From contig NZ_JANZKZ010000001.1 of NCBI RefSeq assembly GCF_025770725.1, positions 558,001 through 622,000 of the forward strand: a stretch of 64,000 nucleotides of DNA. The letters are read 5' to 3'. Below the pieces are notes generated by a model. That model saw only the letters and a program-made list of their open reading frames with translations. It did not search any database and was not told where the DNA came from. Below, one piece after another: positions 30,149 to 49,929 of the stretch; the first letter of the stretch is position 1, and each line of letters begins with the position of its first letter. The DNA comes from Sulfurospirillum oryzae (GTDB lineage Bacteria > Campylobacterota > Campylobacteria > Campylobacterales > Sulfurospirillaceae). The translations under genes and the position numbers were made by a program.

Positions 30149-31414
30149 ATGCAAGCTCGTCAGTCAAAAATGATTACTAGCGCTACTAGCTATTTTATGA
30201 GCCAATATACAAAACACTATTTACATGTAGAAAAACCTTCTTTGGGTTTACCCCCTCCGCCCGAGGCGAAAAAATATCTGCTGTATATTCATGTCCCTTT
30301 TTGTACGATGTTTTGCCCTTATTGCTCTTTTAATAAATTTACCTACACCAAAGAGACTGCCGCAAAATACTTCCAGCATCTACGTGAAGAGATTTTACAT
30401 GTAAAGGCATTGGGGTATGATTTTAACTATTTGGTCATAGGGGGCGGTACGCCTCTCATTGATGAAGAAGAGCTGATTAGAACTATTGAATTGGTCAAAA
30501 AACTCTTTAACGTTGAGCATGTTTCCTGCGAGAGCGATCCTAACCATATTCAAAAAGAGACGGTTACAAGGCTCAAAGGATTGGTTGACCGCCTTTCAGT
30601 AGGTGTTCAAACATTTGACGATGCTCTTTTGAAAAAACTGGGGCGTTACGAAAAGTTTGGTTCTGGAGAAGAAGTCTATGAAAAGATTGCTTCAATGCTT
30701 GGGATTTTACCCATCACCAGTGTTGATCTCATCTTCAATTTTCCAACCCAAACATCAGAAGGGCTTGTCAATGACCTTGAGCGACTCAAAAAACTCACTC
30801 CTGAACAGACCAGTGTTTATCCGCTAATGACCTCTTCTTTGGTGAAAAACAGTGTGAAAAAAACGCTAGGCAAATTTAGCCTTGAGAATGAATACAACTT
30901 TTTTAAAGTTATAAAAGAGTCCCTTAAAGAAACTTATCCTGCACGACATGGGTGGTCGTTTTCAAAAGAGAGTGATTTGATTATTGACGAATACATCATC
31001 GACAATGAAGAGTATGTTGGTGTAGGATCTGGTTCATTTAGCTTTTTAAAAAATACGCTCTACCTCAATGAATTTGCGCTTGATCCGTATGCTAGCCTCA
31101 TTCAAGAAAAACATAGCGCCATTACGAAAGAACGTACTTTTCCACTCAATTCTCAAATGTATTATCGTTTGATGGTTGACCTGTTCAATGGTACGCTTTC
31201 TAAGAAAAAATTTGCCACCATGTTTGGAGTATCGATTAATGATGCACTGGGTAAAGAGCTAATGCTTCTTAAATTTGCTAAAGCAATCAAAGAGACTAAA
31301 GAGAACATCATCACCACAGAATATGGTGACTATCTCTTTTTAGTCATGATGAAAGAGTTTTACATGGGCATGGATCGCATTCGCAATGATGCTCGCAAAA
31401 ATCTTATTATTTAA
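30149..31414 (+). CDS. HemN/HemW-like radical SAM protein
   Basis: A 421-residue radical SAM protein of the coproporphyrinogen oxidase/HemW family. The cluster motif FCTMFCPYCSFNKF (CxxxCxxC) lies near residues 51-58, followed by VIGGGTPLIDEEELI and CESDPNHI. The C-terminal helical domain includes EYVGVGSGSFSFL. The residue after the motif (S) differs from the extra cysteine usual in true HemN, so a heme chaperone, heme-degrading or methyltransferase role is as likely. AAGGATTATT precedes the ATG. It follows the uptake operon region but is not in it. Confidence 0.8.
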   Translation: MQARQSKMITSATSYFMSQYTKHYLHVEKPSLGLPPPPEAKKYLLYIHVPFCTMFCPYCSFNKFTYTKETAAKYFQHLREEILHVKALGYDFNYLVIGGGTPLIDEEELIRTIELVKKLFNVEHVSCESDPNHIQKETVTRLKGLVDRLSVGVQTFDDALLKKLGRYEKFGSGEEVYEKIASMLGILPITSVDLIFNFPTQTSEGLVNDLERLKKLTPEQTSVYPLMTSSLVKNSVKKTLGKFSLENEYNFFKVIKESLKETYPARHGWSFSKESDLIIDEYIIDNEEYVGVGSGSFSFLKNTLYLNEFALDPYASLIQEKHSAITKERTFPLNSQMYYRLMVDLFNGTLSKKKFATMFGVSINDALGKELMLLKFAKAIKETKENIITTEYGDYLFLVMMKEFYMGMDRIRNDARKNLII

Positions 31415-32252
31415 ATGAGGCGAGAGAGAGGCTCTCACTCCATGTTAGAACAAAAAAGCCAATATGTTCACCATTGATGTCTACAATAGGGGTGTAAAGA
31501 ACATAATTGTCCCCTCGTTTCAAAAACCCCGTTCCTTGAAAATTAACCTCTTTGATAAAATTGAGTCCATTAATCTCTTGATTGACAATCGTGTAGTTAT
31601 CTAGCATCAGTTTATCATTGTAAGCAACTGCATTAGCAATCGTTCGATACTCATTTTTCATGAGTACATAAAATTCAACACCATCCTTTTTAAAGTAGGT
31701 GTTCAAATCTTTAAAATCCACCACCGTTTCGATGGTTCCCACATATTCTCCTTTTTGAAACACCGGAGCAATAGCACGCATAAACATACCCGAACGACCA
31801 ATTTCAATCCCTTTGATCGGATGTTTTGTCTGTTTTATTTTATCAAGCGCATGACGGAAAGTGCTAAGATCATCATTGGTCTGATTGCTGTAATCCCACA
31901 AACGCATAAAGCTTTTAAAATCTTTAGTATGCAGATGCAGACGTGCATTTTCAAAGACATTGGCAAGCGCCATTGTGTTTCGGATATCTAATAAATAGTG
32001 CAAGCAGATATTACGATCTTGCCTACTTAAACAATCAATCACATAAGGGCTTTTCGCCAAAATAACCGAACTGGTTAAGGAGACTTTTGTTGTCTCTTCG
32101 ATTTTATTATGCAAGGTTAAAAGCAAGGCATCCATCTGTTTTTTACGTGTTTCATCTTCTTCGTAAGAGATCGATTTGTCATACAAAAAAAGTATGACAA
32201 GCCCAAAAAAGAGCATCAATGCAGCACTGAGAAAAAACCTTTTTTCTTTCAT
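31407..32252 (-). CDS. Membrane-anchored periplasmic Cache (dCache_3-type) sensor protein 1
   Basis: A 281-residue protein with one N-terminal membrane helix (FLSAALMLFFGLVILFLY) and a periplasmic double-Cache-like domain but no output domain. Family marks: ARLHLHTKDFKSFMRLWDYS, DDLSTFRHALDKIKQTKHPI and GIEIGRSGMFMRAIAPVF. It is the last gene of a six-gene operon and overlaps the histidine kinase by four bases. I infer it binds a ligand and signals to that kinase. A similar protein accompanies the second kinase near 48 kb. Confidence 0.82.
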   Translation of the reverse strand: MKEKRFFLSAALMLFFGLVILFLYDKSISYEEDETRKKQMDALLLTLHNKIEETTKVSLTSSVILAKSPYVIDCLSRQDRNICLHYLLDIRNTMALANVFENARLHLHTKDFKSFMRLWDYSNQTNDDLSTFRHALDKIKQTKHPIKGIEIGRSGMFMRAIAPVFQKGEYVGTIETVVDFKDLNTYFKKDGVEFYVLMKNEYRTIANAVAYNDKLMLDNYTIVNQEINGLNFIKEVNFQGTGFLKRGDNYVLYTPIVDINGEHIGFFVLTWSESLSLASFK

Positions 32253-33430
32253 ATTTCACCCTTTGTTGCTTCATTATCAACAGTATCCAGCAGCTTCTTT
32301 TTATCAAGTTTAAAAATATATGTAAAACGCGAGCCTTTGTTTTCATAAGACTCTATTTCTATATCAATGTCATTTTTATTGCAAATATTTTGCACGATAT
32401 TAAGCCCTAATCCAAAGCCACCTTGCACAGAGTCTTCCCGCTCAAAGCGTTGAAATACTTTGTAAAGATCTTTAATACCTTGTCCGTAATCATGAAAACA
32501 GAGCACACAATGTTCATCATCTTTTCTGGCAAGATTGATCTCTACTTTACCTTGGAAAAAAGAGTATTTGATAGCATTGGAAAGCGTATTGTCAATAATG
32601 CGTTGCAATTCTACTTTACTGATATAAATCATCATATCTGGCTCTATCTCGTATTCGAGTACGATAGATTTTGAGACAGCAATATCTTCAAAAAAAGCAA
32701 TCCTAAGCCCCAAATACTCAGAAAGATTGATCGGCTCTTTGGCATAAACAAGCTTTTTGTGCTTAATGTAATACTCCACATCTTCATACGTCATCTGCAT
32801 CTGTTTTGTTGCTGCTTTAATGCGCTGAAGATGCTTTGAAGAGGTTACATAACTTGAAAGTAATTCAACGTTGATATTAATAACCCCAAGAGGTGTTTTA
32901 AGCTCATGCATCGAATCATTGAAAAAATCATTCATATAGCGTTGCATCTTTTGATAAGGATAGATGCTGGAATTGACAAAAAGATTACTCATCAAATAGA
33001 CTAAAAAAAGCACAATAAAAAAGAGCATCGTCGTCACAAAAATAATTTTGGCGTAATTGAGTTGCATCTCCACGACAAGAAAAACAAGTTCAGTGTCTGT
33101 TTTAATCTCTTTTTGATAATACAAAAAAGGATAAATAACGCGTACTTTAAAGTTCAAGTCATCAAAATTTTGCTGAATTCCCTGATACATGAGCTTATGA
33201 GCGTCATCGTAAATATTGAGATGGAACCGCACACTGCGAGGAATATCAAAACTCTCTTTAGCAAAAATACTTTTTTCATGCGCTTCAACCCACTCAAGAA
33301 TTTCTTGGGTTGCTTTGTATTTTTCCTCCATGATGGTACTTTGAATGGCAAAGTAACTGGGCACACAAAAAAGTGTCATGATAAGAATGGTATAGACTAA
33401 AACCGAACGAAGTGGATTATACGATAACAT
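32249..33430 (-). CDS. Sensor histidine kinase linked to psr operon 1
   Basis: A 393-residue inner-membrane kinase. Two helices (about 9-28 and 128-150) frame a modest periplasmic region of about 100 residues. The phospho-acceptor is in [13 protein letters not shown] (H about 175), the N box in LQRIIDNTLSNAIKYS and the G box in DYGQGIKDLYKVF plus GGFGLGLNIV. There is no HAMP or cytoplasmic PAS. It overlaps its response regulator and the Cache gene, so the three likely form one pathway. Confidence 0.93.
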   Translation of the reverse strand: MLSYNPLRSVLVYTILIMTLFCVPSYFAIQSTIMEEKYKATQEILEWVEAHEKSIFAKESFDIPRSVRFHLNIYDDAHKLMYQGIQQNFDDLNFKVRVIYPFLYYQKEIKTDTELVFLVVEMQLNYAKIIFVTTMLFFIVLFLVYLMSNLFVNSSIYPYQKMQRYMNDFFNDSMHELKTPLGVININVELLSSYVTSSKHLQRIKAATKQMQMTYEDVEYYIKHKKLVYAKEPINLSEYLGLRIAFFEDIAVSKSIVLEYEIEPDMMIYISKVELQRIIDNTLSNAIKYSFFQGKVEINLARKDDEHCVLCFHDYGQGIKDLYKVFQRFEREDSVQGGFGLGLNIVQNICNKNDIDIEIESYENKGSRFTYIFKLDKKKLLDTVDNEATKGEI

Positions 33431-34085
33431 CGATCTTGTATCCTAAACCTCGAGAAGATTTTATAAACTCCTCTTCATCTACTTTAAGCCTGATTTTTCT
33501 TATATACATACGAATATCGGCATAACTGATCTCTTTGCCTTCCCAAACATTTTCACGAATAAGCTCGATGTCACAAAACGTATTTTTCCTGCGAATCAAA
33601 AAACGTACAAGATCTTGTTCCTTAGAGGTTAAAGAGACAATTTTATCGCCTTTTCTAAGATCACCTGTCTCAAAATTGAAGATAAATCCACATCCCAATT
33701 GAAACTCGCCCGCCGTACTGGTTTGATAATGTTTTTTAATGAGCTCTTTCACGCGAAGCTCAAGCTCTTTAAGCTCAAAAGGTTTTTTAAGGTAATCATT
33801 ACACCCAAGTTCATAACCAATAGCAATATTATCAATATCGACTAAAGAAGTAATGATAATAATCGGTGTGGTAATATTGGCTTCTTTAATGTATTGAATC
33901 AATTCGTGACCACTGATTTTTGGCACTTTAACATCAAGCAAAAAAAGATAGTAGCACTTTTGCATAATGGCATCAAGCGCACTCTCGCCATCAAAAAAGG
34001 CATCGACTTCATACCCTAAAAGCTCTAAGTACTCCTTAATGCTCTCATTGTAATTGTAGTCATCTTCTAACAATAAAATTTTCAT
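33417..34085 (-). CDS. OmpR-family response regulator linked to psr operon 1
   Basis: A 222-residue regulator with a receiver domain (ILLLEDDYNYNES, phosphorylated Asp about 51 in LFLLDVKVP, PIIIITS, YLKKPFEL) and a winged-helix DNA-binding domain (SLTSKEQDLVRFLIRRKNTF, SSRGLGYKIDV). I take ATG 34085, with AAGGAAAAAGG before it, over an earlier in-frame start. It is ten bases after psrC1. Such regulators bind 11-base direct repeats. Confidence 0.94.
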   Translation of the reverse strand: MKILLLEDDYNYNESIKEYLELLGYEVDAFFDGESALDAIMQKCYYLFLLDVKVPKISGHELIQYIKEANITTPIIIITSLVDIDNIAIGYELGCNDYLKKPFELKELELRVKELIKKHYQTSTAGEFQLGCGFIFNFETGDLRKGDKIVSLTSKEQDLVRFLIRRKNTFCDIELIRENVWEGKEISYADIRMYIRKIRLKVDEEEFIKSSRGLGYKIDVIV

Positions 34086-34095
34086 GCCTTTTTCC

Positions 34096-35064
34096 TTAAC
34101 CAAGATAAATTTGTCCTGCGTAAATAATGTAGTAACGAAGCATCAAAACGCCCAAAATAACGACCATTGAGTTAATGATAATATACCCTACACGGTAGAC
34201 GTGGCTGCGAAGAGCCACAATAACGGTTAATAGAGGTAAACCTAATCCAACACCTATGACCCCTAGCCAAAAAATGCCTGCCCAAAAACCCTCTGTTAGT
34301 GCCATTCTAGCAGCTTGAGGGGCATCTCCACCTGCGTAAAACATCCCAATAAAGAAAAGGGCTAAAAGAGGAAGCTCTGTTAATATAACCCTTGTATCCA
34401 GCACTAAAAGATATTTGATACTTTCGGTATTGATTGTACTTTTGAAAAACAGCAATCCGATTAAAATATTCACCGCAACACCCGAAGAGAGACTGGATGT
34501 TAAAAACAGAACAGGCAAAAGTGGGCTATTCCATAAAGGTATAGCATACAGTGCCGAGAGTAAAAAACCAGTATATGAGCCAACACACAGAGCTGCTACA
34601 AAGAGAAAATATTCGATGATTTTAGCATAAGAGTGGAAACTTTTCACGAGATTAATCAGCCCTTCTAAAGGTGCTAAAATGGGGTGTTTTATGACATTTC
34701 GCTCAAAAACAAGCAACATGAAAACCACAACTATCGGCGTATAGATGAGCAAGAAGAGCACGCCTAAACTCATCACCGATGTGATGTTATAACGTACTAA
34801 AAGCCAATAAAATGAAAAAGGACGCCCAAGATCAATGACTAATAGAAACAATCCTAAAAAGATCGCAGTAGGAGCAACCACCGCACCCGCTTTGATCATC
34901 GCATCCCAAATGGAAGAGTTACTGCGTTCATGGCGATTCCACTTTACCAATAGTGCCACAATAATTGAGCCCGAACTAAGACCGGCTAAAAAGAGATAAA
35001 TCGCAATCGCCCATGACCAATGAATCGTGCTGTATTGCTCCACACTTCCCCACATAGGACTCAT
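34096..35064 (-). CDS. psrC: NrfD/PsrC-family membrane quinol subunit 1
   Basis: A 322-residue polytopic protein that anchors the reductase and oxidises quinol. About eight to nine helices are visible (AIAIYLFLAGLSSGSIIVALLVKW; LLGLFLLVIDLGRPFSFYWLL; others). MSPMWGSVEQYSTIHWSW is the expected N-terminus, giving an ATG at 35064 that overlaps psrB1 by four bases; upstream residues in frame are not PsrC-like. The family is shared by polysulfide, thiosulfate and tetrathionate reductases. Confidence 0.92.
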   Translation of the reverse strand: MSPMWGSVEQYSTIHWSWAIAIYLFLAGLSSGSIIVALLVKWNRHERSNSSIWDAMIKAGAVVAPTAIFLGLFLLVIDLGRPFSFYWLLVRYNITSVMSLGVLFLLIYTPIVVVFMLLVFERNVIKHPILAPLEGLINLVKSFHSYAKIIEYFLFVAALCVGSYTGFLLSALYAIPLWNSPLLPVLFLTSSLSSGVAVNILIGLLFFKSTINTESIKYLLVLDTRVILTELPLLALFFIGMFYAGGDAPQAARMALTEGFWAGIFWLGVIGVGLGLPLLTVIVALRSHVYRVGYIIINSMVVILGVLMLRYYIIYAGQIYLG

Positions 35065-35627
35065 ACTTTTACTCCTTTGCGACTTGGAATAAAAGCCACT
35101 TTTGGCTTGGTTCCAAGATGTGCTTTTGGAAATACAAGTACCTCTTTTTGCGATTTTTGCTCTACTAAAGAGCCTTTTTGTCTCATATCTCCAAAACTGA
35201 GGGCTTCTGTGGGACAGGTGCTGACGCAAGCGGGTAAAAGCTCTTTGGATACACGTGTGTCATAACAAAAAGTACACTTCTCAACCACATTTTTAAGAGG
35301 ATTGACAAAACGTGCATGGTACGGGCATGCAAGAATGCAATATTTACATGTAATGCACGTTTTCTCATCAATGTGAACCAATCCATCTTTGCTCTGAAAG
35401 GAAGCATGTGTGGGGCAAACACTTACACAAGGAGGGTTTTCACACATCATGCAAGAAAGCCTCTCATAGCTCATCCCAAGATTAGGAAATACCCCTTTGG
35501 TCTGTACATGCACTTGTAGCCTAAAGAAATTATCGGGAACACTGTTTTCTACTCGACAGGCAACACTGCATGCTTGGCATCCGATGCAAAGGTTTTCATC
35601 ATAAAGAAGTCGATACTGTTTTGGCAT
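35061..35627 (-). CDS. psrB: PsrB-like electron-transfer subunit with four 4Fe-4S clusters 1
   Basis: A 188-residue ferredoxin-like subunit passing electrons between PsrC and PsrA. Four cysteine groups are visible: CIGCQACSVACR, CMMCENPPCVSVCP, CITCKYCILACP and CTFCYD with CVSTCP. There is no signal peptide; it would be exported with PsrA by the Tat system. Nine bases separate it from psrA1. Confidence 0.93.
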   Translation of the reverse strand: MPKQYRLLYDENLCIGCQACSVACRVENSVPDNFFRLQVHVQTKGVFPNLGMSYERLSCMMCENPPCVSVCPTHASFQSKDGLVHIDEKTCITCKYCILACPYHARFVNPLKNVVEKCTFCYDTRVSKELLPACVSTCPTEALSFGDMRQKGSLVEQKSQKEVLVFPKAHLGTKPKVAFIPSRKGVKV

Positions 35628-35636
35628 GCTTCTTCC

Positions 35637-37925
35637 TTATGCTTTTAGTATTTCGACACCAACATTGGTGATCATTGCCCCACACAATGTGGCACTTTGC
35701 AGTGATAAAAGCTTTGAAGGATTCATTCCTTTGCCATGTGTTCGCTTCATCATCGGTGCATCTCTGCCAAATCCCATATAAGCAAAGAGCGTATCAGGAC
35801 GAATACCTTCGGTGATAAAAACAGTTCCTTTCTCTTTTGAAATACCATTTTTGAGGTAAAAAGTATCGCCTTGTTTCAGTCCGTGCTCTTTAGCGGTTAG
35901 TGGGTTCATCCAGATCGGATTATCGGACATTAACATATTCAAATAAGGAATATTTTGAGTATGTCCATTTGTATGTACCGCACTCTTTCCGCTGGTTAAA
36001 ACATACGGATAGCCTTGTTTTACATCCATATCTACCGCACTTGGAACACCATAGCCTTTAAATGCCTTCTCCACCGTTTTACAAAAAATCTCGATCTTGC
36101 CAGAAGGTGTTTTGAGCTGTGTAAGCATAGAGCTTAAAAGACCATTGCTATCTAGCAAAGAATTACATTTGGGATGACGCTCGCAAAACCGTTCCACAAA
36201 AACGCTCTCTCTTGCAAACAATTCAGGAACATCAAACGAAGCAACGCCTCGCCTTAACAGTGTTTCCAATAGCACGCTATCGCCTTTGGCTTGAAAAGCG
36301 CGTAACTCTGCAACAGTTCGCCATACGAAGTGACTACCAAATCCCATTCGTTCCGCTAACTCTCTTACAATTTCAATAGCACTTCTATTCTGATGCAGTG
36401 GTTCTACAATGCGATTACGCATCGCATAACACGGTGTTTTAAATGCAATTTTGCTAATCCCCTCATCTCGCTCTAAATAAGTGGCTTCAGGCAAAACAAC
36501 ATCTGCCATCATTGCCGTATCTGAGAGATAAATGTCATTGACCACAATAAATTCAAGTTGCTCCATTGCCTCTTTCATCTTTTGTGGATGTGCGACAGTG
36601 ACCAAAGGGTTATGTCTGGTTAAAAACCATCCTTTAATTTCATAAGGCGTTTGGGCAAGAATAGCTTCAGGAATAGCCGTTAAAGAGCCATGTCTTTTAG
36701 AGACAAAGCGGTTTGCACTTCCTTCTTCTCCTGCGCCATCAAGGCGTTTTTCGTTGACCAAAGGTCTAGGATAGGGATCATTCAGTACGGGTACGATCAT
36801 CTCTTTGGCAAAAGCATTGATACGTTCAGCTGTTTTTGCAAAATAGATGCCACCTTCTCTTTCAACATTGCCCATCAAAATATTGGCGATCAAAATGGCC
36901 CTGCTTCGCTGATACTCCGCTTTGGTTGTCGTTGCTTTGTGCCCCCAGTCGATAATACATTTAGGCGAAGCTGCGTAAATCTCTTCGGCAATCCGTTCTA
37001 CAACCTTTGCATCAATGCCGGTGAGTGTTTGTTGCCACTGAGGTGTCGTTTCTTTAACCGATTGCGCTAATGCCTCAAAACCAATTGTATACTGCTCGAC
37101 AAATTTTTTGTCATATTTAGCATCCCTGATCCATACATGTAAAAGGGCTAGAACAAAGGCTAAATCGCTTCCAGGGTTGATCGGATGCCACTCGTTGGCT
37201 TTTGAAGCGATCACAGAAAAACGTGGGTCAAGTACCACTAATTTTTTGGAAGGATTGGCTGAAAAATGTGCCATCGCTTTGGTAAGAGGTATATCTAAGC
37301 CCTCAAAAAGATTATGTCCAAAGTTAAGAATGTAGTTTGCGTTTTCAAAATCACGGTGTAACTTTTCGCCAAAAGTGTGTTCAAAAGCACTTTCAATCGC
37401 AATGGGACAAGAGCTCCAATGCGAAAAAACATTGGGTGAGCCAAAGGCTGAAGCAAAAGAGCGCAAAAGGTCATATTGCTCGCCTGTTTTAGCCGAGAAA
37501 ATGACACTACGAGCACCATAACGCTCTCTTAGCGCACTGAGTCTTCCAGCTACAAGACTAAGCGCTTCCTCCCAACTTGCTTCTCTCCACTTATTTTCGC
37601 CTCTTTTTCCCAAACGGATCAGTGGTTTAACCAACCTTTGCGTATCATAGAGTTGAGATGCGCCCGCAACACCTTTAGCGCATAAGCTCGTTCCCATCTC
37701 TTTAGCAAAAGGGTTTCCTTGCAACAAGACGGTTTTACCATTCACCACACGTGCCTCCATAGGACAACGGCTACTACACATTTCACAGATGGAGCGAATA
37801 AATTTATCTTCACTTTTAAGAGCAACTTCTCCTAAGGCACCCAAGCTTCCAGGTATCACAACAGTGGTGGCTACACCCGTTGTTGCTATCTTTAAGAAGT
37901 CTCTTCGCGCTTGGAGATATGCCAT
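35637..37925 (-). CDS. psrA: Polysulfide/thiosulfate reductase catalytic subunit 1 (molybdopterin)
   Basis: A 762-residue bis-MGD molybdoenzyme. A Tat signal (ARRDFLK) leads to a 4Fe-4S site (C47, C50, C54, C82) and a molybdenum-ligand cysteine at about 173 (HWSSCPIA), as in PsrA/PhsA. Later motifs include LDPRFSVIA and HTQNIPYL. The order psrA-B-C with a two-component system downstream marks it as respiratory. Polysulfide, thiosulfate or another sulfur substrate cannot be separated by sequence alone. AGGTGAAG precedes its ATG. Confidence 0.9.
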   Translation of the reverse strand: MAYLQARRDFLKIATTGVATTVVIPGSLGALGEVALKSEDKFIRSICEMCSSRCPMEARVVNGKTVLLQGNPFAKEMGTSLCAKGVAGASQLYDTQRLVKPLIRLGKRGENKWREASWEEALSLVAGRLSALRERYGARSVIFSAKTGEQYDLLRSFASAFGSPNVFSHWSSCPIAIESAFEHTFGEKLHRDFENANYILNFGHNLFEGLDIPLTKAMAHFSANPSKKLVVLDPRFSVIASKANEWHPINPGSDLAFVLALLHVWIRDAKYDKKFVEQYTIGFEALAQSVKETTPQWQQTLTGIDAKVVERIAEEIYAASPKCIIDWGHKATTTKAEYQRSRAILIANILMGNVEREGGIYFAKTAERINAFAKEMIVPVLNDPYPRPLVNEKRLDGAGEEGSANRFVSKRHGSLTAIPEAILAQTPYEIKGWFLTRHNPLVTVAHPQKMKEAMEQLEFIVVNDIYLSDTAMMADVVLPEATYLERDEGISKIAFKTPCYAMRNRIVEPLHQNRSAIEIVRELAERMGFGSHFVWRTVAELRAFQAKGDSVLLETLLRRGVASFDVPELFARESVFVERFCERHPKCNSLLDSNGLLSSMLTQLKTPSGKIEIFCKTVEKAFKGYGVPSAVDMDVKQGYPYVLTSGKSAVHTNGHTQNIPYLNMLMSDNPIWMNPLTAKEHGLKQGDTFYLKNGISKEKGTVFITEGIRPDTLFAYMGFGRDAPMMKRTHGKGMNPSKLLSLQSATLCGAMITNVGVEILKA

Positions 37926-37970: not shown

Positions 37971-40772
37971 TCAAAGTGAAATGATTGGGTTCGGTTTACT
38001 AAAGAGGTAGCCTTGCGAAAAGTCTACATGTAAACTCTGAAGTTTTTGTTGAACACTCATTTTGTCCACAAATTCAGCAACCGTGATATATCCCATTTTT
38101 TGCGCAAAAGAGATAATCGTCTCTACGGTCATGGCACTTGTTTCGTTGGTATCAATATCTTTAATCAAAGAGCCATCAATCTTAATGATGTCAACCTTCA
38201 ATTTCACCAAGTAGGCAAAGTTAGAATAGCCTGTGCCAAAGTCATCAATCGCGATGCGACATCCAAGCTTTTTAACCTCATGAATGAAAGCTGTAATCTC
38301 ACCAAAATTTTCAATACCCTCTGATTCTACAATTTCTATAATGACCCGATGGGCACACTGATATTTTTTGAGATTGCTATACAAACACTCTTTCACGGAA
38401 GTTGAGAGGATATCTCCCTTGGTAAGATTGATCGAAAAATCCACCTTAAAGTCTTTGAGATAGTCAAATGATTTGTTGATCATAATCTTGGTCAATTTTT
38501 CATAAAGGCGTGTTTTTTTAGCTTGATCCAAAAAGTAATAAGGACTAAGATAACTTCCATCCTCTTCCTGCAGGCGCATTAAAACTTCGTATTTAGTAAT
38601 TTTATGCAGTTTATTGTCATAAATTCCTTGAAAGAATGGCACAATGCGGTCATTTTCTATCGCCGTGCGAATCTTTTGAATGATTTGCAAATTTTGTCTT
38701 GTTTTTGCTTTTAAAGCTTCATTGATGTCATAAAATGTAATGGCGTGATTATGTATTTTTGCCTCTTTAAGCGCTATATGTGATTGCATATAGATCTCAT
38801 CATTATCGCCTTGTGCTACGCCTACATTAAGCCTAACAACCACTTCATAACCCTTAATCGTAAAGACTTTTTTCTCTAAATTATGAACCATTTTTTTAAT
38901 TTTGTCATGCACATTAGCAAGCAGTCTTCCATCATTTTGACACAGTAGCACTGCAAATTCATCGCCATTGATACGAAAAACCACATCGGGGTGATTATCA
39001 AACGTATCCATTAAAAACAGAGCAATTTGCTTTAAAAGCTCATCGCCTACATCATAGCCTAAGTAGTCATTAATCTCAGAGAATCCTACAAGATTGAGCA
39101 AAATCAAAAGCTTTTCTTTGGCATCCAAACGAATGCGATGGAACAACGCTTCACGATTTCCAAAACCCGTTAATTCATCTTTAAAATGCTTTTCAATCAA
39201 CTGCTCTTTTAAAATCAGCTCAGTAATATTGATGCTACTGGTAATATACTCAACGATATTGCCTTTCTCATCTAAAAAAGGCATGAGTGTGCTTTTAATA
39301 TAAAATGTTTCTCCTATAGGATTGATACATTGAAGAACCCCACTCCAAATCTCCCTTTTTTGAAGAGCGCCCCAAAGATCTCTATATACAGATACATCTG
39401 AATTTGGATGCCGAAACCGGCTGTGTTGACTTCCTAAAATCTCTTCTTTACTTAAACCTGTCACCCTACAAAAAGCATCATTGACATAGGTAATATTACC
39501 GCTTGTATCCATTTTGGAGACAATTGCACTTTGGTCTAATATCATCTTATACTGATTCAAAGAGTTGAGATTGACATCAAGTTCATGTTGTGTTGTATTG
39601 ACAAGATGTGTTAAAGACTTGAGCATTGAGCAGTTGACTTCTGGTTTTTCACCTAACGTATGAGAGACGATATAGTCTGATTCACTCAGTGTTAATACCG
39701 TGGTTGTAACATTGAGCAGTTGATTTTTATGCTCTGAGTGAAAAAACTCTCCATAAGTGAAAAAACCCGCTGTTGGAGCAATTTGCTGTAAAAGTCCAAA
39801 CTCATAATTGAGTTGTTCTTGCAGAAAAAGCTTTCGCGCACTACAAGAGTAAATCAAAATGGCTTCGGTGGGTTTTTCATTGATTTGTGTTTGCATAAAG
39901 ATGGCTCGATCCATCATGTCTTCTACATTTCCCATCGAAAAACAGACTTTATCACCCTCATTTAAATGACCTGCAAAGACCAATGAACCATCATCATTGC
40001 AACCAATCAGTGAGCGGCACACATTTATGTCATCACTTACTTTGACAAAAGGAAACTCTATGGCGCTGTTAGGAAGATTTTGTAAAATATCTTTACCCAA
40101 ATAGTGTTGATACACCTCTTTCACGGGTTTATAATCAATCTCATAAACAGTATTGCCATCGGATTTTGTAATCGTTAGTTCTTTACCAATTTGTGTCCAT
40201 GGCAATGAATAAACATTGTTTACATGTAAGTTCTTGCCACTCAACGTTGCAATGACAATACCTTGGTCTAAAATCTGATCTTCACAAATAACAAAAGCGC
40301 TTTGAAATAAAAAATCATCAGCAGCATTGCCGCCAGAGAGAGGTATATCAGCTCTTATGCTATTAAATCCTTCGATAAAATCTTCACTATCGTCCTCGCC
40401 AAAAGGATGTGCTAACGCAATACAAACCTTTGTATCTTTCTCTAAAATAGAAGAGGCGGCCTTTTGACCACTTTCAAAGTTCACATCTGCAAAATAGTAA
40501 ACTTTCGCACTGCTTTTTTCAAGCTGAGTAAAACTAATTTGAATGGAGGCTGTTTTGATGCGACCTGATTTAATTTCACCAGCAGTACTTGCACCAATAA
40601 TAACGCAGTGAGGAAAATTTCGTTTAAGAAAATGAAGGATTTGTGTTATTTTTATTCTATCAACATCACCACAAAAAAGTTGCACCAGCAAATGATCATT
40701 AGGTCTAAAATAGGTTCTAATGAATTTTTCTAATGACTCTGGTGTTTCGTAGGTATAGTTAATTAACTTCAC
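37971..40772 (-). CDS. FIST-PAS-GGDEF-EAL sensor of c-di-GMP turnover
   Basis: A 933-residue cytoplasmic protein. FIST_N and FIST_C (about 20-375) are thought to bind small ligands such as amino acids. PAS follows at about 400-515 (GNITYVNDAFCRVTGL), then a GGDEF domain with a degenerate motif (FRINGDEFAVLL) and an EAL domain with the catalytic pattern intact (YEVLMRL, EIVESEGIE, DDFGTGYSNF, KIDGSLI). It should mainly degrade c-di-GMP. It sits between the two psr operons on the same strand. Confidence 0.9.
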   Translation of the reverse strand: MKLINYTYETPESLEKFIRTYFRPNDHLLVQLFCGDVDRIKITQILHFLKRNFPHCVIIGASTAGEIKSGRIKTASIQISFTQLEKSSAKVYYFADVNFESGQKAASSILEKDTKVCIALAHPFGEDDSEDFIEGFNSIRADIPLSGGNAADDFLFQSAFVICEDQILDQGIVIATLSGKNLHVNNVYSLPWTQIGKELTITKSDGNTVYEIDYKPVKEVYQHYLGKDILQNLPNSAIEFPFVKVSDDINVCRSLIGCNDDGSLVFAGHLNEGDKVCFSMGNVEDMMDRAIFMQTQINEKPTEAILIYSCSARKLFLQEQLNYEFGLLQQIAPTAGFFTYGEFFHSEHKNQLLNVTTTVLTLSESDYIVSHTLGEKPEVNCSMLKSLTHLVNTTQHELDVNLNSLNQYKMILDQSAIVSKMDTSGNITYVNDAFCRVTGLSKEEILGSQHSRFRHPNSDVSVYRDLWGALQKREIWSGVLQCINPIGETFYIKSTLMPFLDEKGNIVEYITSSINITELILKEQLIEKHFKDELTGFGNREALFHRIRLDAKEKLLILLNLVGFSEINDYLGYDVGDELLKQIALFLMDTFDNHPDVVFRINGDEFAVLLCQNDGRLLANVHDKIKKMVHNLEKKVFTIKGYEVVVRLNVGVAQGDNDEIYMQSHIALKEAKIHNHAITFYDINEALKAKTRQNLQIIQKIRTAIENDRIVPFFQGIYDNKLHKITKYEVLMRLQEEDGSYLSPYYFLDQAKKTRLYEKLTKIMINKSFDYLKDFKVDFSINLTKGDILSTSVKECLYSNLKKYQCAHRVIIEIVESEGIENFGEITAFIHEVKKLGCRIAIDDFGTGYSNFAYLVKLKVDIIKIDGSLIKDIDTNETSAMTVETIISFAQKMGYITVAEFVDKMSVQQKLQSLHVDFSQGYLFSKPNPIISL

Positions 40773-40932: not shown

Positions 40933-41886
40933 TTATCCGACGAAGGTTTGACCTGCATAGAGAATATAATAACGAAGTGCCATAACACCTACAAGAACGA
41001 TGAGCGCATTGAAAATGACAAAGCCTTGAGAGTGTTTAACCCCATGAGGCAATGCAAAATTCAGTCCGATTGGTAAAATCAATCCTAGACCAATAACACC
41101 GAACCAAAGCAAGGTTGAAAGACCTCCTGTACTGAGTGCTGCTTTTGCGACATGTGCCGTAGCCCCTCCTTGATACATCATACCTACAAAGAGGATAAAG
41201 AGGAAGAAAAGTTCAGCAAAAATCACTTTGACATCTAAACCATGCAGATAACTCACATTACCCTCATTCGTAGAGCTATTAAAGAAAAGAAGCCCTACTA
41301 CCAAGTTTGCAGAAATACCAGCCGATACACCCGAAGCTAAGAAAAGCGCTGGAAGAATTGGTGTGTTAAGTAACGGGAAGCTGTTCATCGCTGAAAGCAA
41401 GAAACCTGTATACGCACCAACACCTACGGCTAAAACCAGTGTCACACTCTCAATCAACTTCGCTTGAGAAAGTGCTAGGTCTGCAATTGGAGCTAAGAAT
41501 TTAAACGGTCCATTTTCAACCAACTCTTTTTTAAAGACACCCAGTAAAAAGAGAAGAACGACAGGAAAATAAACAAACAGTGCTAAAACACCCAAAGTCA
41601 TGACTGAGCCAAAGTTATAGTGAATCAACAATTTCCAAAACATCAATGGGCGTGTAAGGTCAGTAATTAAAAGTAACAAACCTACCCCAATAGTTACAGG
41701 AGCTAGAATTGCGCCTGCTTTAATGATACCATCCCATGGAGAGACATCATTACCTTTCATCCACTTAATCACGATAGCAGAAATTATAGCTCCCGCAGAG
41801 AGACCTGCTAAAAAGAGATAAACCGCAATTGGCCAATGCCATACGACTGTGTTATATTGCTCCATTGAGCCCCAGATCTGATTCAT
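40933..41886 (-). CDS. psrC: NrfD/PsrC-family membrane quinol subunit 2
   Basis: A 317-residue integral membrane protein homologous to the first PsrC. It begins MNQIWGSMEQYNTVVWHW and shares the AVYLFLAGLSAGAIISAIVIKW helix, LLLITDLTRPLMFWKLL and GGATAHVAKAALSTGG patterns. It overlaps psrB2 by four bases and ends just before a strong hairpin. It would take electrons from menaquinol. Confidence 0.93.
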   Translation of the reverse strand: MNQIWGSMEQYNTVVWHWPIAVYLFLAGLSAGAIISAIVIKWMKGNDVSPWDGIIKAGAILAPVTIGVGLLLLITDLTRPLMFWKLLIHYNFGSVMTLGVLALFVYFPVVLLFLLGVFKKELVENGPFKFLAPIADLALSQAKLIESVTLVLAVGVGAYTGFLLSAMNSFPLLNTPILPALFLASGVSAGISANLVVGLLFFNSSTNEGNVSYLHGLDVKVIFAELFFLFILFVGMMYQGGATAHVAKAALSTGGLSTLLWFGVIGLGLILPIGLNFALPHGVKHSQGFVIFNALIVLVGVMALRYYILYAGQTFVG

Positions 41887-42458
41887 GAGTTGATCCCTCC
41901 TTTGTGATTAGGTACGATAAACATTTTTGGGCTTGTTCCCAATTTCTCTTTTTGACGATACGTTACACGCTCTGAGCGTACTTGGTTGATTTTACTTTTT
42001 GGATCGTTCAAATCACCAAAAACCAATGCGTCAGTTGGACAAACAGTGACACATGCTGGCTCTTCACCACGACTTAAGCGTGATTCATGGCAGAATGTAC
42101 ATTTATCAGGTGCTTTGGTCACAGGATGCACGTAGCGTGCTTGGTAAGGGCATGCTGCGATACAGTACAAACAGCCTACACACAAATCAACATCAACCAA
42201 CACGATGCCTTCTTCATTAACATGTGAAGCTTTTGTAGGACAAACGCTAACGCATGGTGTATTTTCACACTGAACACATGATTGACGGTGGTACTCATAA
42301 CCGAGCGTTCCATTTGGATATTCAGTAGGTCCATTGACCCATACTTGTAAGCGATAGACGGATTCTGGTATTTTATTTTCAGATCTGCACGCAACACTAC
42401 ACGCTTGACAACCGATGCAAAGATTATTATCGTGGATCATTCCATATTTTTTTGCCAT
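41883..42458 (-). CDS. psrB: PsrB-like electron-transfer subunit with four 4Fe-4S clusters 2
   Basis: A 191-residue ferredoxin-like protein with four cysteine groups: CIGCQACSVACR, CVQCENTPCVSVCP, CVGCLYCIAACP and CTFCHE with CVTVCP. It is 15 bases after psrA2 and overlaps psrC2. It is very similar to the first PsrB, so the operons are paralogous. Confidence 0.94.
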   Translation of the reverse strand: MAKKYGMIHDNNLCIGCQACSVACRSENKIPESVYRLQVWVNGPTEYPNGTLGYEYHRQSCVQCENTPCVSVCPTKASHVNEEGIVLVDVDLCVGCLYCIAACPYQARYVHPVTKAPDKCTFCHESRLSRGEEPACVTVCPTDALVFGDLNDPKSKINQVRSERVTYRQKEKLGTSPKMFIVPNHKGGINS

Positions 42459-42473
42459 TGTTTTTTCCTCCCC

Positions 42474-44765
42474 TTACGCTTTTCTTACTTTGACGCCAAC
42501 AACATGCAGGTTCATACCTGAGTTTGGCGATACAAAGGAAGCATAAAGCGCATTGCTGTTGACACCTTTACCATAAGCTCTCTTAAGCTCTTTACTGACG
42601 TGCCCAAATCCAAAGTAAGCAAAAATAGTATCTTCACGTACTCCTTTTGTCACGTTAGCTTTGCCTTTTTGGGTGCTGTATTTATTATAAACTTCAACTT
42701 TGTCACCCTGTTTGATGCCAAGACGTTCTGCTGTTTTTGGGTGAATCCACACACCTGCATCATCACAAAGGTTGTTCAACCAAAGGTTGTTACCATTGTG
42801 GCCATTGGTACGTACCGCTGACTTACCATTGACAAAGTAGAGTTCATCTGCCTCTTTGTATTTGTAAGGCTCATAGCTAAGAGCGCCTTTTTTAGAAACC
42901 TCTTCCAGTTTATGGCTAAAGAGTCGAATTTTTTCAGGGAAATTAATCGTGCCCTCTTCGTTGACTTTGCTTGCCGCACTTGGATATTTTTTTACAAACT
43001 CAGCCACACTTTTTTTATCTTGAAGTAACAATGGAACACCAAAGCTAGCACTACCTGTTGCTTTAAGTTTGGCAAGAAGCTCAACATTGTCACCCACTTG
43101 TTGTAAACGATAATCTTCAATGTCTTTGTATGGGAAATAATCCCCTAAGCCCATTTTTTCTCCAAGCTCTTTTGCCACTCTCCAACCTGGACGAGACTCA
43201 CCGACTGGCTCAACCACTTTTTGACGGCCTACACCATACCCTGGATTTTTACTGCCACTTGCGGTAAACTCTTCATCTCGCTCTAAATACGTGGTATCGG
43301 GAAGAACAATGTCGGCATACCAAGCGGTATCAGAGACTTGAATATCAAAAACCACCACCAAATCCATCGCTTTAATTGCTTTAATGACGGTTTCCATATT
43401 GGACTGTGTCATTACAGGATTGTTACGTGCGATGAACCAACCATGAAGTCTATAAGGTACCCCTGGAAGATCTTCTAAGGTTGCTTTAGGTATTAAAGTG
43501 ACAATACCAGCGCCTTTTCCCGCCAAGAAGAACTCATTGTCTTTTTCACCGATGCGATCAATTCTAGGAACCGCAATTTTTGGATAAGCAGGGATTTTTG
43601 GTTTTTTAAGACCTGGCGCTTTGGCATCGCCTTCACCAAGGAATTTATTGTAAAAACCAGCACCTTTATTAAGATAATAACCACCTTCTTGCTCCACTGC
43701 ACCTACAAGAACGTTACACATCATCATTGCACGACGAAGTTCAAGTTCTTGTGGTGTAAATCCACAACGGTGACCAAAATCAAAGATGGCTTTTGGCGCA
43801 GCTTTGGCAAATTCACGAGCTAAACGTTTAATGGTATCCGCTGGAATATCACACTCCGTTGCCATTTTCTCAGGAGTATACTCAGCCACTGAAGCTTTCA
43901 GTTCTTCAAAACCTTCACAGTATTTTTCAACGAATTTTTTATTGTATAGATTTTCATTAATAAGAACATTGATAAAGGCTAAAACAAATGCAATATCATG
44001 TCCTGGTTTAATCGCATGCCATTCAGTTGATTTTGCTGCCATTGCGGAGAATCTTGGCTCTAAAGTAACCACTTTACCACCGTGTGCGAGCATATCCATG
44101 TACTGACGTGCGTAAGAGATAACGATACCTTCAAAGACATTGTGACCCATATTGATGATATATTTGGCTTTACCAAAATCACGGCTAATGCCATTTTCAA
44201 AAATATCATCCATTGCCATATCGTATGCTAAAGGACAAGTAGCCTCATGCCCGAAAAGGTTGTGTGAGCCATACGCTTGAGCCAAATTATGGAACCATGT
44301 TTTGTTCCAACCGCTACGTGCTGTAAATGCCACCGTATGCGCACCATGTTTTTGTTTAATCTCTTCAAGTTTATTGGCAATAAAAGTGTAAGCTTCGTCC
44401 CAACTGACCACTTTCCACTTTCCTTCACCACGTTCACCCACGCGCATAATAGGCTTAACCAGACGCTGTGGATCATACAACTGATTAAATCCTGAAGAGC
44501 CACGAGCACAGATTTTTCCACCTCTGCTTTTGTCCGCTGGATTTCCTTTGATAAACACACCCTTGCCCTCTTCCACCTTTGCTTCGATAGTACAAGCGCT
44601 CGTACACATCTCACAAATACTTGGTGTATATTTGGCATTCCCTTTAAGTTGCTTTTGACTCTCTTCAAGTGCACCCAGTGTTCCTGGAATGCTTGAGAGA
44701 CTAGCAACTGCTGCGGCTGCAGAAGAGAGCTTTAAAAAGCTTCTTCGACTAAGCATTTGAGTCAT
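42474..44765 (-). CDS. psrA: Polysulfide/thiosulfate reductase catalytic subunit 2 (molybdopterin)
   Basis: A 763-residue Tat-exported molybdoenzyme ([15 protein letters not shown]). The 4Fe-4S cysteines are at C51, C54, C58 and C86, and the molybdenum cysteine at about C177 (HEATCPLA). It shares overall layout with PsrA1, but the two have diverged, including a different active-site neighbourhood ([11 protein letters not shown] versus HWSSCPIAIES), so they may prefer different sulfur substrates. Its promoter region carries 11-base direct repeats. Confidence 0.92.
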
Positions 44766-44810
44766 CTTTTATCCTTTTACTAAGATTAAGTACGGTCATC
44801 TTAATCATTG

Positions 44811-44831
44811 TATGTAAATTTTATGTAAATT
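44811..44831 (-). promoter_or_regulatory. Direct repeats of a probable OmpR-type regulator before psrA2
   Basis: On the plus strand TATGTAAATT occurs twice with an 11-base period (44811 and 44822). On the transcribed strand this reads AATTTACATA-A-AATTTACATA directly ahead of a TACAAT that can act as -10. This is the classic activator layout for an OmpR/PhoB-type response regulator, of which the window encodes two. A related TATGTAGAT at 44851 is not in phase. Confidence 0.55.
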
Positions 44832-47203: not shown

Positions 47204-48199
47204 CTATTTTGCAGGAATAATGATACCTTGGTATGGTCCAAATTTATGTTGGTGACGTGTTTTATTGTCATCATAAGGTCCAATATCACTATCAGGAACT
47301 TTCATGCTAAGATCAGGAAAATCTTTTTCACGGTTTGCTTTAACATCGCGTGGCTTGTCATAGTTGTTGATATACGCCGCGACATTATAGGCTTGTTCAT
47401 CGGTTAAGATACGATTTTTATTGTCCGCACCAAAAGGCATATTTGCCACGATCCAGTCTGCCGCACGAATGACTCTAAACATACCAGCACCTGTGTTATA
47501 GCTGTCTTTGCCCCAAAGCGGTGGATATTCATAACCGTTGGCTTTGCCTTCACGTTTCACGCCTTGACCATTGTCACCATGGCATGAAGCACAAAACTCT
47601 TTATACACTTTTTCGCCTTTGATCGGATCGGCCGCTTGACTCATAATCATCTTGCGATTGACTTGAGGAAACTCAGCCCCTTCCACTTTTGCACCCAAAG
47701 GGATTCCTTGTCCTAGCCAATACATATACGTTACGATTGCTCGCATCTCTTTGCCATTTTCAGGAAGTGGTTTACCGTTCATACTACGCCCCATACAACC
47801 ATTCACGCGCTCTTCAATACTTCCAATGCTCTCATCGCGGTTACGATACTGCGGGAAGGAGGCAAAAGATGCCATAAACGGACCAGACCATTTTTTTGTA
47901 CCGGCTTCTTGATGGCATGATGAACAGGCAAGATTATTACCCGCATATCGCATTTTCGGATCGCTTACTTCTGGACCTATGTATTTATACGTTTCATTGA
48001 CGAGTGCTTTACCATAGCGCACTGTATCGCCAAAAAGAGTGTTAGGAATGGTACTCTCATCAGGTGCTTTCCAATCTTTCACCACCACAGGTTTAAACCC
48101 TTTGTCTGAACGTTTATTGAGTTCTGCTGTATCAAATGCAAAAAGCCCGCTTGCGCACGATACAATCAGTGCTAAACGTACGATTGAACCTACCTTCAT
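47204..48199 (-). CDS. tsdA: Diheme c-type cytochrome, TsdA thiosulfate dehydrogenase/tetrathionate reductase
   Basis: A 331-residue exported cytochrome (signal VRLALIVSCASGLFAF) with two heme sites, CSSCH at about 92 and CASCH at about 203. RVNGCMGRSMNGKPLP carries a Cys (about 135) placed as the unusual heme ligand of TsdA, and NRKM (K183, M184) matches its Lys/Met pair. TsdA interconverts thiosulfate and tetrathionate in the periplasm; the direction differs between species. It is divergent from a Cache-regulator-kinase set. Confidence 0.9.
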   Translation of the reverse strand: MKVGSIVRLALIVSCASGLFAFDTAELNKRSDKGFKPVVVKDWKAPDESTIPNTLFGDTVRYGKALVNETYKYIGPEVSDPKMRYAGNNLACSSCHQEAGTKKWSGPFMASFASFPQYRNRDESIGSIEERVNGCMGRSMNGKPLPENGKEMRAIVTYMYWLGQGIPLGAKVEGAEFPQVNRKMIMSQAADPIKGEKVYKEFCASCHGDNGQGVKREGKANGYEYPPLWGKDSYNTGAGMFRVIRAADWIVANMPFGADNKNRILTDEQAYNVAAYINNYDKPRDVKANREKDFPDLSMKVPDSDIGPYDDNKTRHQHKFGPYQGIIIPAK

Positions 48200-48244: not shown

Positions 48245-48262
48245 GTCAATTTAACGTCAATT
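48245..48262. promoter_or_regulatory. Direct repeats between tsdA and sensor set 2
   Basis: GTCAATT occurs twice with an 11-base period (48245 and 48256), in the 90-base divergent gap between tsdA and the Cache gene. The spacing suits an OmpR-type response regulator. On the tsdA strand the pair reads AATTGAC-GTTA-AATTGAC, with a possible -10 TATCAT downstream. The sequence differs from the repeats before psrA2. Confidence 0.5.
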
Positions 48263-48289: not shown

Positions 48290-49273
48290 TTGAAACGGTT
48301 TCCACGAAGAAAGAAAGGATATCCCATCAAAAATTTTCGCGCACTGGCTCTTTTGTTTGGACTCTTTTTTATCACAATACTTGTATTGGTTTTTCTCATC
48401 TATCGCGCTAACCATAACCTCTATATCGAAGATGCCAAAAACAGTGTGGAGAGTGTTTTAGGGCACACACAAGAGCTTATTTCGCACGAAAAACAGCTTG
48501 CCCTTAGCATTGCATTGATGCTTGCGCAAAATGAAACACTTAAGCAAGGCTATCTCAAAAATGATCGTCAACTCCTTTTTGAAACGTTACAAAGCGAAAT
48601 TCCAAAGATCAAACAATATCTTCAAATCGAAAACCTTGAAGTACAGCTTCACACCAAAGAAGGTAAATCGTGGGTGCGAAGTTGGGATTTTGAAAGTTAT
48701 GGGGATGACCTCTCCTCTTTTCGTAAAGGCATAGCACTCCTACACCAAACAAAAACACCTCTTGTTGCCATTGAGCTTGGAAAGCGTCTCAATATCAAAG
48801 CACTGTGTCCTATCTTCGATAAAGAAGAACTGATAGGCTCTTTAGAAATTATTATTGGATTTGATGAAGTGGCACAAAAACTCAGCGATAAAAAAATTCG
48901 CTTTGTTGTGCTCATGGAGAAAAAATTTCTAGAAATTGGTGAATGGATGAAAGAGTTAGAGCAAATCAATGACTATGTTATCATCAGTAACAGTTGTTCA
49001 AACCGTTGTGTAGAAACCCTTTCTTCTATTATCACGCCTGAAATTCTTAACAAAGGATTTGCACGCTCTAACGGGGCACTTTTCGGATTTACACCCCTTT
49101 TCGACATTGAAGCCAAACAAGTGGGCTACATTGGAATTTGGTTTGGCGAATCTCTTTTAAAAGAGTCTCTACTCCTTCGTGCAACACTAACACCCAACAC
49201 AAAACCTTTACATGTAAAAACGCTTCAACCCTCCAGCAATGCCTCAACACCAAGTGAGGTGATCATACGATGA
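48290..49273 (+). CDS. Membrane-anchored periplasmic Cache (dCache_3-type) sensor protein 2
   Basis: A 327-residue counterpart of Cache protein 1: one membrane helix (ALLFGLFFITILVLVFLIY) and a periplasmic domain with VQLHTKEGKSWVRSWDFES, DDLSSFRKGIALLHQTKTP and AIELGKRLNIKALCPIF, no output domain. The listed TTG start is uncertain. A TATAAT ends just before it, and AAAGGA six bases before an ATC at 48326 would give MKNFRALALLFGLFF, which aligns with protein 1. It overlaps its regulator by four bases. Confidence 0.8.
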   Translation: MKRFPRRKKGYPIKNFRALALLFGLFFITILVLVFLIYRANHNLYIEDAKNSVESVLGHTQELISHEKQLALSIALMLAQNETLKQGYLKNDRQLLFETLQSEIPKIKQYLQIENLEVQLHTKEGKSWVRSWDFESYGDDLSSFRKGIALLHQTKTPLVAIELGKRLNIKALCPIFDKEELIGSLEIIIGFDEVAQKLSDKKIRFVVLMEKKFLEIGEWMKELEQINDYVIISNSCSNRCVETLSSIITPEILNKGFARSNGALFGFTPLFDIEAKQVGYIGIWFGESLLKESLLLRATLTPNTKPLHVKTLQPSSNASTPSEVIIR

Positions 49274-49929
49274 AGATTTTATTGCTTGAAGATGACTATA
49301 CGTATAGTGAAAGCATCAAAGACTCTCTTGAGGAGATGGGCTATAGTGTCGATGCGTTTGATGATGGCTTAAAAGCACTCGATGCACTCTTTGAAAAACG
49401 TTACCATCTAGCACTTCTTGATATTCGTGTGCCCCATATAGATGGGTATGAAATCTTAAAAGAGATTCGTAAAGCTAAACTTGATCTACCCATTATTTTT
49501 ATCACATCACTCACAGATATTAACAATCTCTCTTTAGGGTATGAACTGGGCTGTAACGACTATTTGCGTAAACCATTTTCACTCAAAGAGCTTCAGTATC
49601 GCGTCTCGCAAACACTCAATAGTTATCATTTACACACGACCCTAGGAGTCATTGCCCTAAGTAACGGCTTTTCTTACAATGTGGATGATCATTCCCTATG
49701 GTATGATACCTTGCAAGTACCCCTCAGTAATTATGAAAAAAAACTTCTCTTCTTATTGGTTAAAAACAGAGGTAATTTTATCTCAACCGATCTCATTCAT
49801 GACTACGTATGGGAAGGTAAGGAAGTCGGTGACAATGATATTCGTATGCTGATTAAAAAGTTGCGTGACAAGACCGATAAAGACTTCATTATTACCGCAA
49901 AAGGAATAGGATATAAAATTGAAAAATGA
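49270..49929 (+). CDS. OmpR-family response regulator of sensor set 2
   Basis: A 219-residue regulator with receiver (ILLLEDDYTYSES, Asp about 51 in LALLDIRVPHIDG, IIFITSLTD, YLRKPFSL) and winged-helix domain ([29 protein letters not shown]). It closely resembles the regulator of the psr operon, so the two arose by duplication. It overlaps the Cache gene and the kinase. Confidence 0.94.
   Translation: MKILLLEDDYTYSESIKDSLEEMGYSVDAFDDGLKALDALFEKRYHLALLDIRVPHIDGYEILKEIRKAKLDLPIIFITSLTDINNLSLGYELGCNDYLRKPFSLKELQYRVSQTLNSYHLHTTLGVIALSNGFSYNVDDHSLWYDTLQVPLSNYEKKLLFLLVKNRGNFISTDLIHDYVWEGKEVGDNDIRMLIKKLRDKTDKDFIITAKGIGYKIEK

Follow-up and report, generated by a model that had tools for sequence, protein, structure and literature searches.

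A 64-kb stretch of the Sulfurospirillum oryzae genome (contig NZ_JANZKZ010000001.1, positions 558,001 to 622,000; hereafter the window, meaning the whole 64,000 nucleotides analysed) contains a run of six minus-strand genes at 31407-37925, in which the three genes of a polysulfide or thiosulfate reductase (psrA1, psrB1, psrC1) are followed by genes for a response regulator (RR1), a histidine kinase (HK1) and a stand-alone dCache_3 protein (Cache1). It is quite likely that the last three constitute a three-component system overall, with Cache1 as the sensor, HK1 as the transducer and RR1 as the regulator of sulfur reductase genes. Related trios occur across the Campylobacterota beside psr/phsABC, tsdA or soxXYZAB, and the recurring trio is probably a widespread split switch for sulfur metabolism that has not been described previously. 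As a genomic system the trio is well supported by the comparisons below; its ligand and its mechanism we infer. The six genes are:

31407..32252, minus strand: Cache1, stand-alone membrane-anchored dCache_3 protein of 281 amino acids (PF14827, AlphaFold2 model, Foldseek); candidate periplasmic ligand sensor
32249..33430, minus strand: HK1, histidine kinase of 393 amino acids with HisKA and HATPase_c domains and no HAMP domain; candidate transducer
33417..34085, minus strand: RR1, OmpR/PhoB-type response regulator (PF00072, Response_reg; PF00486, Trans_reg_C)
34096..35064, minus strand: psrC1/phsC1, NrfD-type membrane subunit (PF03916)
35061..35627, minus strand: psrB1/phsB1, ferredoxin subunit with four [4Fe-4S] clusters (Fer4 domain match)
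35637..37925, minus strand: psrA1/phsA1, molybdopterin/Fe4S4 catalytic subunit (NCBIfam PhsA, 1046 bits)

Successive genes are separated by 9 bases (psrA1-psrB1) or 10 bases (psrC1-RR1), or overlap by 4 bases (psrB1-psrC1), 14 bases (RR1-HK1) and 4 bases (HK1-Cache1, an ATGA-type overlap), with ATG at 35064 and ATG at 34085 as the likely starts of psrC1 and RR1 in place of those of the longest open reading frames. The gene coordinates thus bear out a preliminary description of this DNA, which had six genes in this order on a single strand with gaps of at most 10 bases or overlaps. The operon that it proposed stands for the six genes, but its upstream limit was set too early, as a FIST-PAS-GGDEF-EAL gene and then a second psrABC follow on the same strand.

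The reductase has the molybdopterin/Fe4S4 subunit, four-cluster ferredoxin and NrfD anchor of PsrABC/PhsABC enzymes. The catalytic subunits encoded by psrA1 and by psrA2 of the second set both pass the NCBIfam model for thiosulfate reductase PhsA, and the closest solved relative of the psrA1 product is Thermus 2vpw; because this equivalog does not separate the two substrates and the nearest structure is 2vpw, sequence does not decide between polysulfide and thiosulfate, or between the names psr and phs. HK1 and RR1 have the parts of an OmpR/PhoB-type two-component system, namely a HisKA domain with its phospho-accepting histidine (His175 in MHELKTPLG), a HATPase_c domain, and a receiver joined to a winged-helix regulator.

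Cache1 scores 79.3 bits against the dCache_3 profile PF14827 (gathering cut-off 25.7), so that the separate anchored protein of dCache_3 type in the preliminary description lies far above the cut-off. Its AlphaFold2 model (predicted local distance difference test score, pLDDT, 89.6) places a double Cache domain, the fold of the dCache_3 family, after a long helix at the N-terminus, and the best Foldseek matches are the dCache ligand-binding domains of Mlp24, DctB, McpH, PctA and Tlp3; no convincing solved dCache_3 relative was found by sequence search, and the domain scan found no signalling output domain. HK1 has one transmembrane helix and then a beta-rich segment at residues 69-123; its second helix, at 127-194, continues straight into the phosphotransfer helices with no HAMP domain. 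A small periplasmic part had been ascribed to this kinase, which holds for its size, the loop between the two transmembrane helices being about 92-117 residues across the kinase family; small as it is, the loop is predicted to form a beta-rich domain. From these models it is plausible that the sensor domain lies outside the kinase and the transducer within it.

Conservation of the trio and the kinase-Cache partnership

The window itself contains a second trio, Cache2-RR2-HK2 (48290-51094, plus strand), whose genes overlap one another and are divergent from tsdA:

47204..48199, minus strand: TsdA-type dihaem cytochrome c (thiosulfate dehydrogenase/tetrathionate reductase; PF21342; PDB 4wqc, a thiosulfate dehydrogenase, E 5e-40)
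48290..49273, plus strand: Cache2, paralogous stand-alone dCache_3 protein (PF14827, 54.6 bits)
49270..49929, plus strand: RR2, paralogous OmpR-type regulator, 49% identical to RR1
49919..51094, plus strand: HK2, paralogous kinase, 33% identical to HK1

Because of this second trio the psr-linked trio is regarded as one member of a family; the module had been recognised correctly at psr but too narrowly, the second trio not having been connected with it and trios being found also at tsdA and sox. Two Cache genes of other genomes are interrupted, by decay or sequencing error: Cache2 has an in-frame TGA in G013 (G013:C1:253773-254558), and the Cache1 gene of the draft genome G006 is broken into two reading frames (G006:C155:12830-13943).

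The psrABC-RR-HK-Cache arrangement is retained in the genomes of the same genus whose region is assembled, and is found beyond it in Campylobacter, in Arcobacter sp. CECT 8985 and in two genomes from a different genus of the same family. The position of the Cache gene varies among psr loci, where it may be last, convergent (in another family) or set apart by four intervening genes (in Campylobacter concisus). An alignment of the kinase was searched against 84,980 species genomes, the Cache protein never being used as bait, and 62 of the closest 71 kinases were found to have a dCache_3 gene in their immediate neighbourhood. The Cache gene of one C. concisus locus (L107) is about five to six genes from the kinase, seven of the 71 kinases are cut by a contig end where the Cache gene would be expected, and only one (L148) lacks a Cache gene, having a different coupled sensor gene. 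The 62 Cache-linked loci adjoin sox (31), tsdA-type (14) or psr genes (7), or are unlabelled (10); most of the unlabelled loci stop at a contig edge, L117 and L143 being clear exceptions with full flanks. The sox loci are soxXYZAB clusters, in which SoxY, SoxZ and a SoxA/TsdA-type cytochrome were verified by Pfam. Linkage is thus conserved across the surveyed loci, and the possibility that homologous Cache genes are never linked to the kinase is excluded.

Co-occurrence was examined in 200 genomes of the class, with the clade kinase defined by E <= 1e-100 and a stand-alone Cache protein by a frame under 430 amino acids. A stand-alone Cache protein is present in all 70 genomes that have the clade kinase, and in 71 genomes overall, although the Fisher P for this co-occurrence overstates the independent evidence and is not to be taken literally, because both cut-offs were picked after the tables had been inspected and a single genus accounts for many of the 70 genomes. 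Kinase and Cache genes lie within 2 kb of each other in 56 of 79 kinase cases and about 4-5 kb apart in 18; for the remaining five the separation is 31-50 kb or the two genes fall on different contigs, and as the Cache gene is kept in these five, co-occurrence outlasts linkage.

Separate trees of the kinase and of the Cache protein for 83 loci contain the same major clades, each of one enzyme type: psr (18), tsd (7, 7 and 9) and sox (42). Patristic distances in the two trees are correlated (r = 0.944; the largest value in 2,000 permutations was 0.14), and 36 of 53 splits of at least three rows are common to both. On either tree the enzyme type of labelled rows changes twice, the minimum for three types; a label of "none" on four psr-clade rows is a labelling artefact of minus-strand loci. 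The gene for the putative extracytoplasmic sensor is conserved with, and coupled to, those of the kinase and regulator, as in three-component systems. That the Cache protein is the partner of the kinase, as the preliminary description had inferred, is strongly supported by this linkage, by co-occurrence even where the genes are unlinked and by the matching trees.

Candidate regulator boxes and upstream genes

The candidate boxes of the two regulators, and the genes upstream of psrA1, are:

44812..44829, minus strand: tandem repeat TTTACAT-AAAA-TTTACAT, candidate RR1 box before psrA2
48245..48261, minus strand: tandem repeat ATTGAC-N5-ATTGAC, candidate RR2 box before tsdA
37971..40772, minus strand: FIST-PAS-GGDEF-EAL gene, 45 bases upstream of psrA1 and possibly co-transcribed with it
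40933..44765, minus strand: psrA2-psrB2-psrC2, second reductase, its catalytic subunit about 40% identical to that of psrA1

Within the genus, the sequence TTTACATAAAATTTACAT upstream of psrA2 does not vary. The perfect form TTTACAT-N4-TTTACAT was found in 19 of 24 genomes of the genus, always with one copy before psrA2 and with two stray copies overall, and a near-identical repeat directly precedes the psrABC-RR-HK-Cache operon in Arcobacter sp. CECT 8985 and in genomes from a different genus of the family. The repeat upstream of tsdA, AATTGAC-N4-AATTGAC, occurs in perfect form once in the whole genome from which the window comes, and soxX upstream regions have TTTACAC-type repeats. Exact 7-base repeats with a period of 11 are present in the upstream regions of 14 of 23 psrA, 12 of 21 tsdA and 24 of 29 soxX genes, compared with 21 of 381 controls, whereas 7-base repeats at other periods are near background (at most 3 in any set); the distance from the end of the repeat to the start codon is usually about 45 bases. 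The sites from which PhoB-family regulators activate are 7+4 base tandem repeats, bound closely upstream of the -10 element, and the candidate boxes, as tandem direct repeats of 11-base period at promoters, appear to be of this OmpR/PhoB type.

Because the box lies before psrA2 and none was found before psrA1 by the upstream repeat search in the window, the direct target of RR1 in Sulfurospirillum is probably psrA2, and psrA1-RR-HK-Cache would be either a later part of that transcript or expressed on its own. The region upstream of psrA1 has a different conserved promoter-like element, AAAGTCAAATTATC-N-TACAAT. Between the tandem repeat and the start codon of psrA2 there is also an inverted repeat, TAAGAT...ATCTTA (about 44775-44811, minus strand), which is conserved in the genus. 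A second perfect TTTACAT-N4-TTTACAT (L157:4911-4928; G000:C2:719410-719427), about 42 bases before a chemoreceptor gene, was rejected as a regulon member, being present in the window's genome only and not conserved in the genus.

The gap between the FIST-PAS-GGDEF-EAL gene and psrA is only 1-12 bases in three loci (L050-L052); the gene is absent from locus L055 and from psr loci outside the genus. Large GGDEF-EAL genes flank both trios of the window, one with a FIST-PAS sensor (37971-40772) and one with a CHASE4-PAS sensor (51512-54034), hinting at a link between cyclic diguanylate and sulfur metabolism.

Related kinases with other partners

Short kinases just outside the clade occur without a Cache protein, and since they manage without one, a short loop alone does not demand a Cache partner. 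Complementarity between loop size and Cache presence was set aside as a main argument, as these sister kinases weaken the pattern. Some kinases of the family, among those inspected near the clade but outside it, are coupled to different genes:

L148:6528-9049 and L185:2470-4940: kinase loci coupled to an SBP_bac_3-PAS gene
L181:3256-5430 (G000:C1, the window's genome), L182, L183, L184, L186 and L187: loci with a CxxCH protein

The first two kinases overlap the SBP_bac_3-PAS gene and fall within the Cache-partnered kinases in the tree; the regulator of L148 is degenerate (163 amino acids, receiver core missing). In the six genomes of the second group, a sister pair of regulator and kinase is followed by an overlapping gene for a protein of about 110 residues that begins like a signal peptide and contains an invariant CxxCH; this protein has only weak matches to Pfam cytochromes and is possibly a separate haem-type sensor. 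Kinases of 455-531 residues with larger loops have no Cache gene, and one of them has a weak match to a built-in dCache_2 domain.

These loci suggest that the kinase family takes different separate sensors, with moderate tree support (80-90). The wider proposal, of a Campylobacterota kinase family with interchangeable separate extracytoplasmic sensors (dCache_3 for sulfur oxyanions, SBP_bac_3-transmembrane-PAS, and a small CxxCH haem c protein) whose dCache branch would act throughout the phylum as a thiosulfate-type switch governing the reduction and oxidation of sulfur and the conversion of tetrathionate, appears to us evenly balanced between right and wrong.

Mechanism, alternatives and known systems

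In the proposed mechanism, Cache1 would bind a periplasmic sulfur compound, most likely thiosulfate or a related oxyanion (tetrathionate, polysulfide), and by contact with HK1 would pass its state through the membrane, the second transmembrane helix of the kinase leading into the dimerisation and phosphotransfer helices without a HAMP domain. HK1 would phosphorylate RR1, which would bind the 11-base-period tandem repeat in place of a -35 element, as PhoB does, and activate sulfur reductase genes, in Sulfurospirillum from the box before psrA2. The tsdA gene, and soxXYZAB in other Campylobacterota, would be controlled likewise by paralogous trios. A sulfur oxyanion is moderately favoured as the ligand because Psr/Phs, TsdA and Sox have thiosulfate and related oxyanions, and little else, in common; the choice of thiosulfate in particular is tentative, and clade-specific ligands are possible.

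Several points weigh against this scheme. Besides the cautions attached above to the co-occurrence, the co-divergence of linked genes partly reflects shared history, a few stand-alone Cache genes are orphans (L067, L190), and no box was found before psrA1 or, in the period-11 repeat test, before the psrA genes of C. concisus (L084, L107). Five residues (W119, R133, G172, E175 and G265) are invariant among the Cache proteins, and were dropped as a clue to the ligand; similar residues are found in dCache_3 chemoreceptors. The short kinases without a Cache protein and the loop of HK1 belong here also: given the beta-rich domain predicted for this loop, HK1 may sense something itself or contribute to sensing. 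The orphan at L067 (8621-9736) is a sox-type Cache gene between type II secretion and ExbB-type genes, with no kinase or regulator nearby.

HK1 might accordingly sense through its own periplasmic domain, or the state of the membrane or quinones, the role of the Cache protein being confined to modulation, by tuning or inhibiting the kinase as QseG does with QseE. The five-strand domain predicted for the loop, the short sister kinases without Cache and the existence of accessory periplasmic kinase modulators such as QseG-QseE (PMC6075780, PMC12691602) are consistent with this explanation, but we think it unlikely: the Cache protein is a complete domain of ligand-binding type kept in all 70 clade genomes, and sister kinases have other coupled extracytoplasmic partner genes, which would be expected if specificity resided in the partner. 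Sensing of a non-sulfur compound, such as the organic acids or amino acids that are the usual dCache ligands, with sulfur genes merely as output, is similarly improbable; the nearest solved dCache domains do bind amino acids, C4-dicarboxylates or uric acid, but Psr/Phs, TsdA and Sox are three unrelated systems joined by sulfur oxyanions, and almost all loci whose flanks can be read have one of them. That the Cache protein does its sensing independently of the kinase, acting for example with chemoreceptors or the neighbouring cyclic diguanylate enzyme and linked to the kinase merely through a shared regulon, would fit the dCache_3 chemoreceptor domains of the same genomes, the FIST-PAS-GGDEF-EAL gene in the same gene run and the unlinked Cache genes, but is very unlikely given that Cache1 has no output domain, that kinase and Cache clades pair one to one with no clade kinase lacking a Cache protein, and that some psr loci are without the FIST-EAL gene.

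The trio, read as a Cache sensor with its kinase and regulator, resembles TorT-TorS-TorR and AioX-AioS-AioR in having a separate extracytoplasmic sensor, a kinase and a regulator beside a molybdoenzyme operon through which an inorganic or small compound is respired or oxidised. In those systems, however, the separate sensors have soluble or lipid-anchored binding-protein folds and the kinases keep large periplasmic domains, whereas Cache1 is a membrane-anchored dCache_3 protein without the periplasmic-binding-protein fold of TorT and AioX, and its kinase has a loop of about 100 residues and no HAMP domain. TtrS-TtrR (tetrathionate) and ThsS-ThsR (thiosulfate) likewise regulate sulfur-oxyanion respiration and their ligands are likely similar, but their sensing domain is fused to the kinase, an architecture from which the separate dCache protein sets the trio apart.

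Within the Campylobacterota, a known regulator of psrABC is PsrR of Wolinella succinogenes, the sole psr regulator named in a review (PMC6682613), which is a single AraC-type regulator rather than a multi-component system. In Sulfurospirillum, the OmpR-type two-component system PceS-PceP controls a respiratory gene region, but the PceS kinase has its own periplasmic domain and seven transmembrane helices, and no separate Cache partner is described for it (PMC7755780). An accessory periplasmic protein also controls the kinase in QseG-QseE-QseF, although QseG is an outer-membrane lipoprotein and not a ligand-binding Cache domain (PMC6075780, PMC12691602). No description of a Cache-kinase three-component system, of a membrane-anchored dCache kinase partner or of a dCache thiosulfate sensor was found in the open-access literature searched.

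The Campylobacterota have a major part in oxidising and reducing sulfur at vents, in sediments and aquifers, and in guts, and to our knowledge the switching of their sox, psr/phs and tsd genes is largely unexplained. The trios and their repeats supply candidates for the sensor, the kinase, the regulator and the DNA box of the psr/phs, tsd and sox groups alike. As naturally occurring pairs of stand-alone sensors and kinases, they may also serve to study how a separate anchored sensor signals to a kinase through the membrane.

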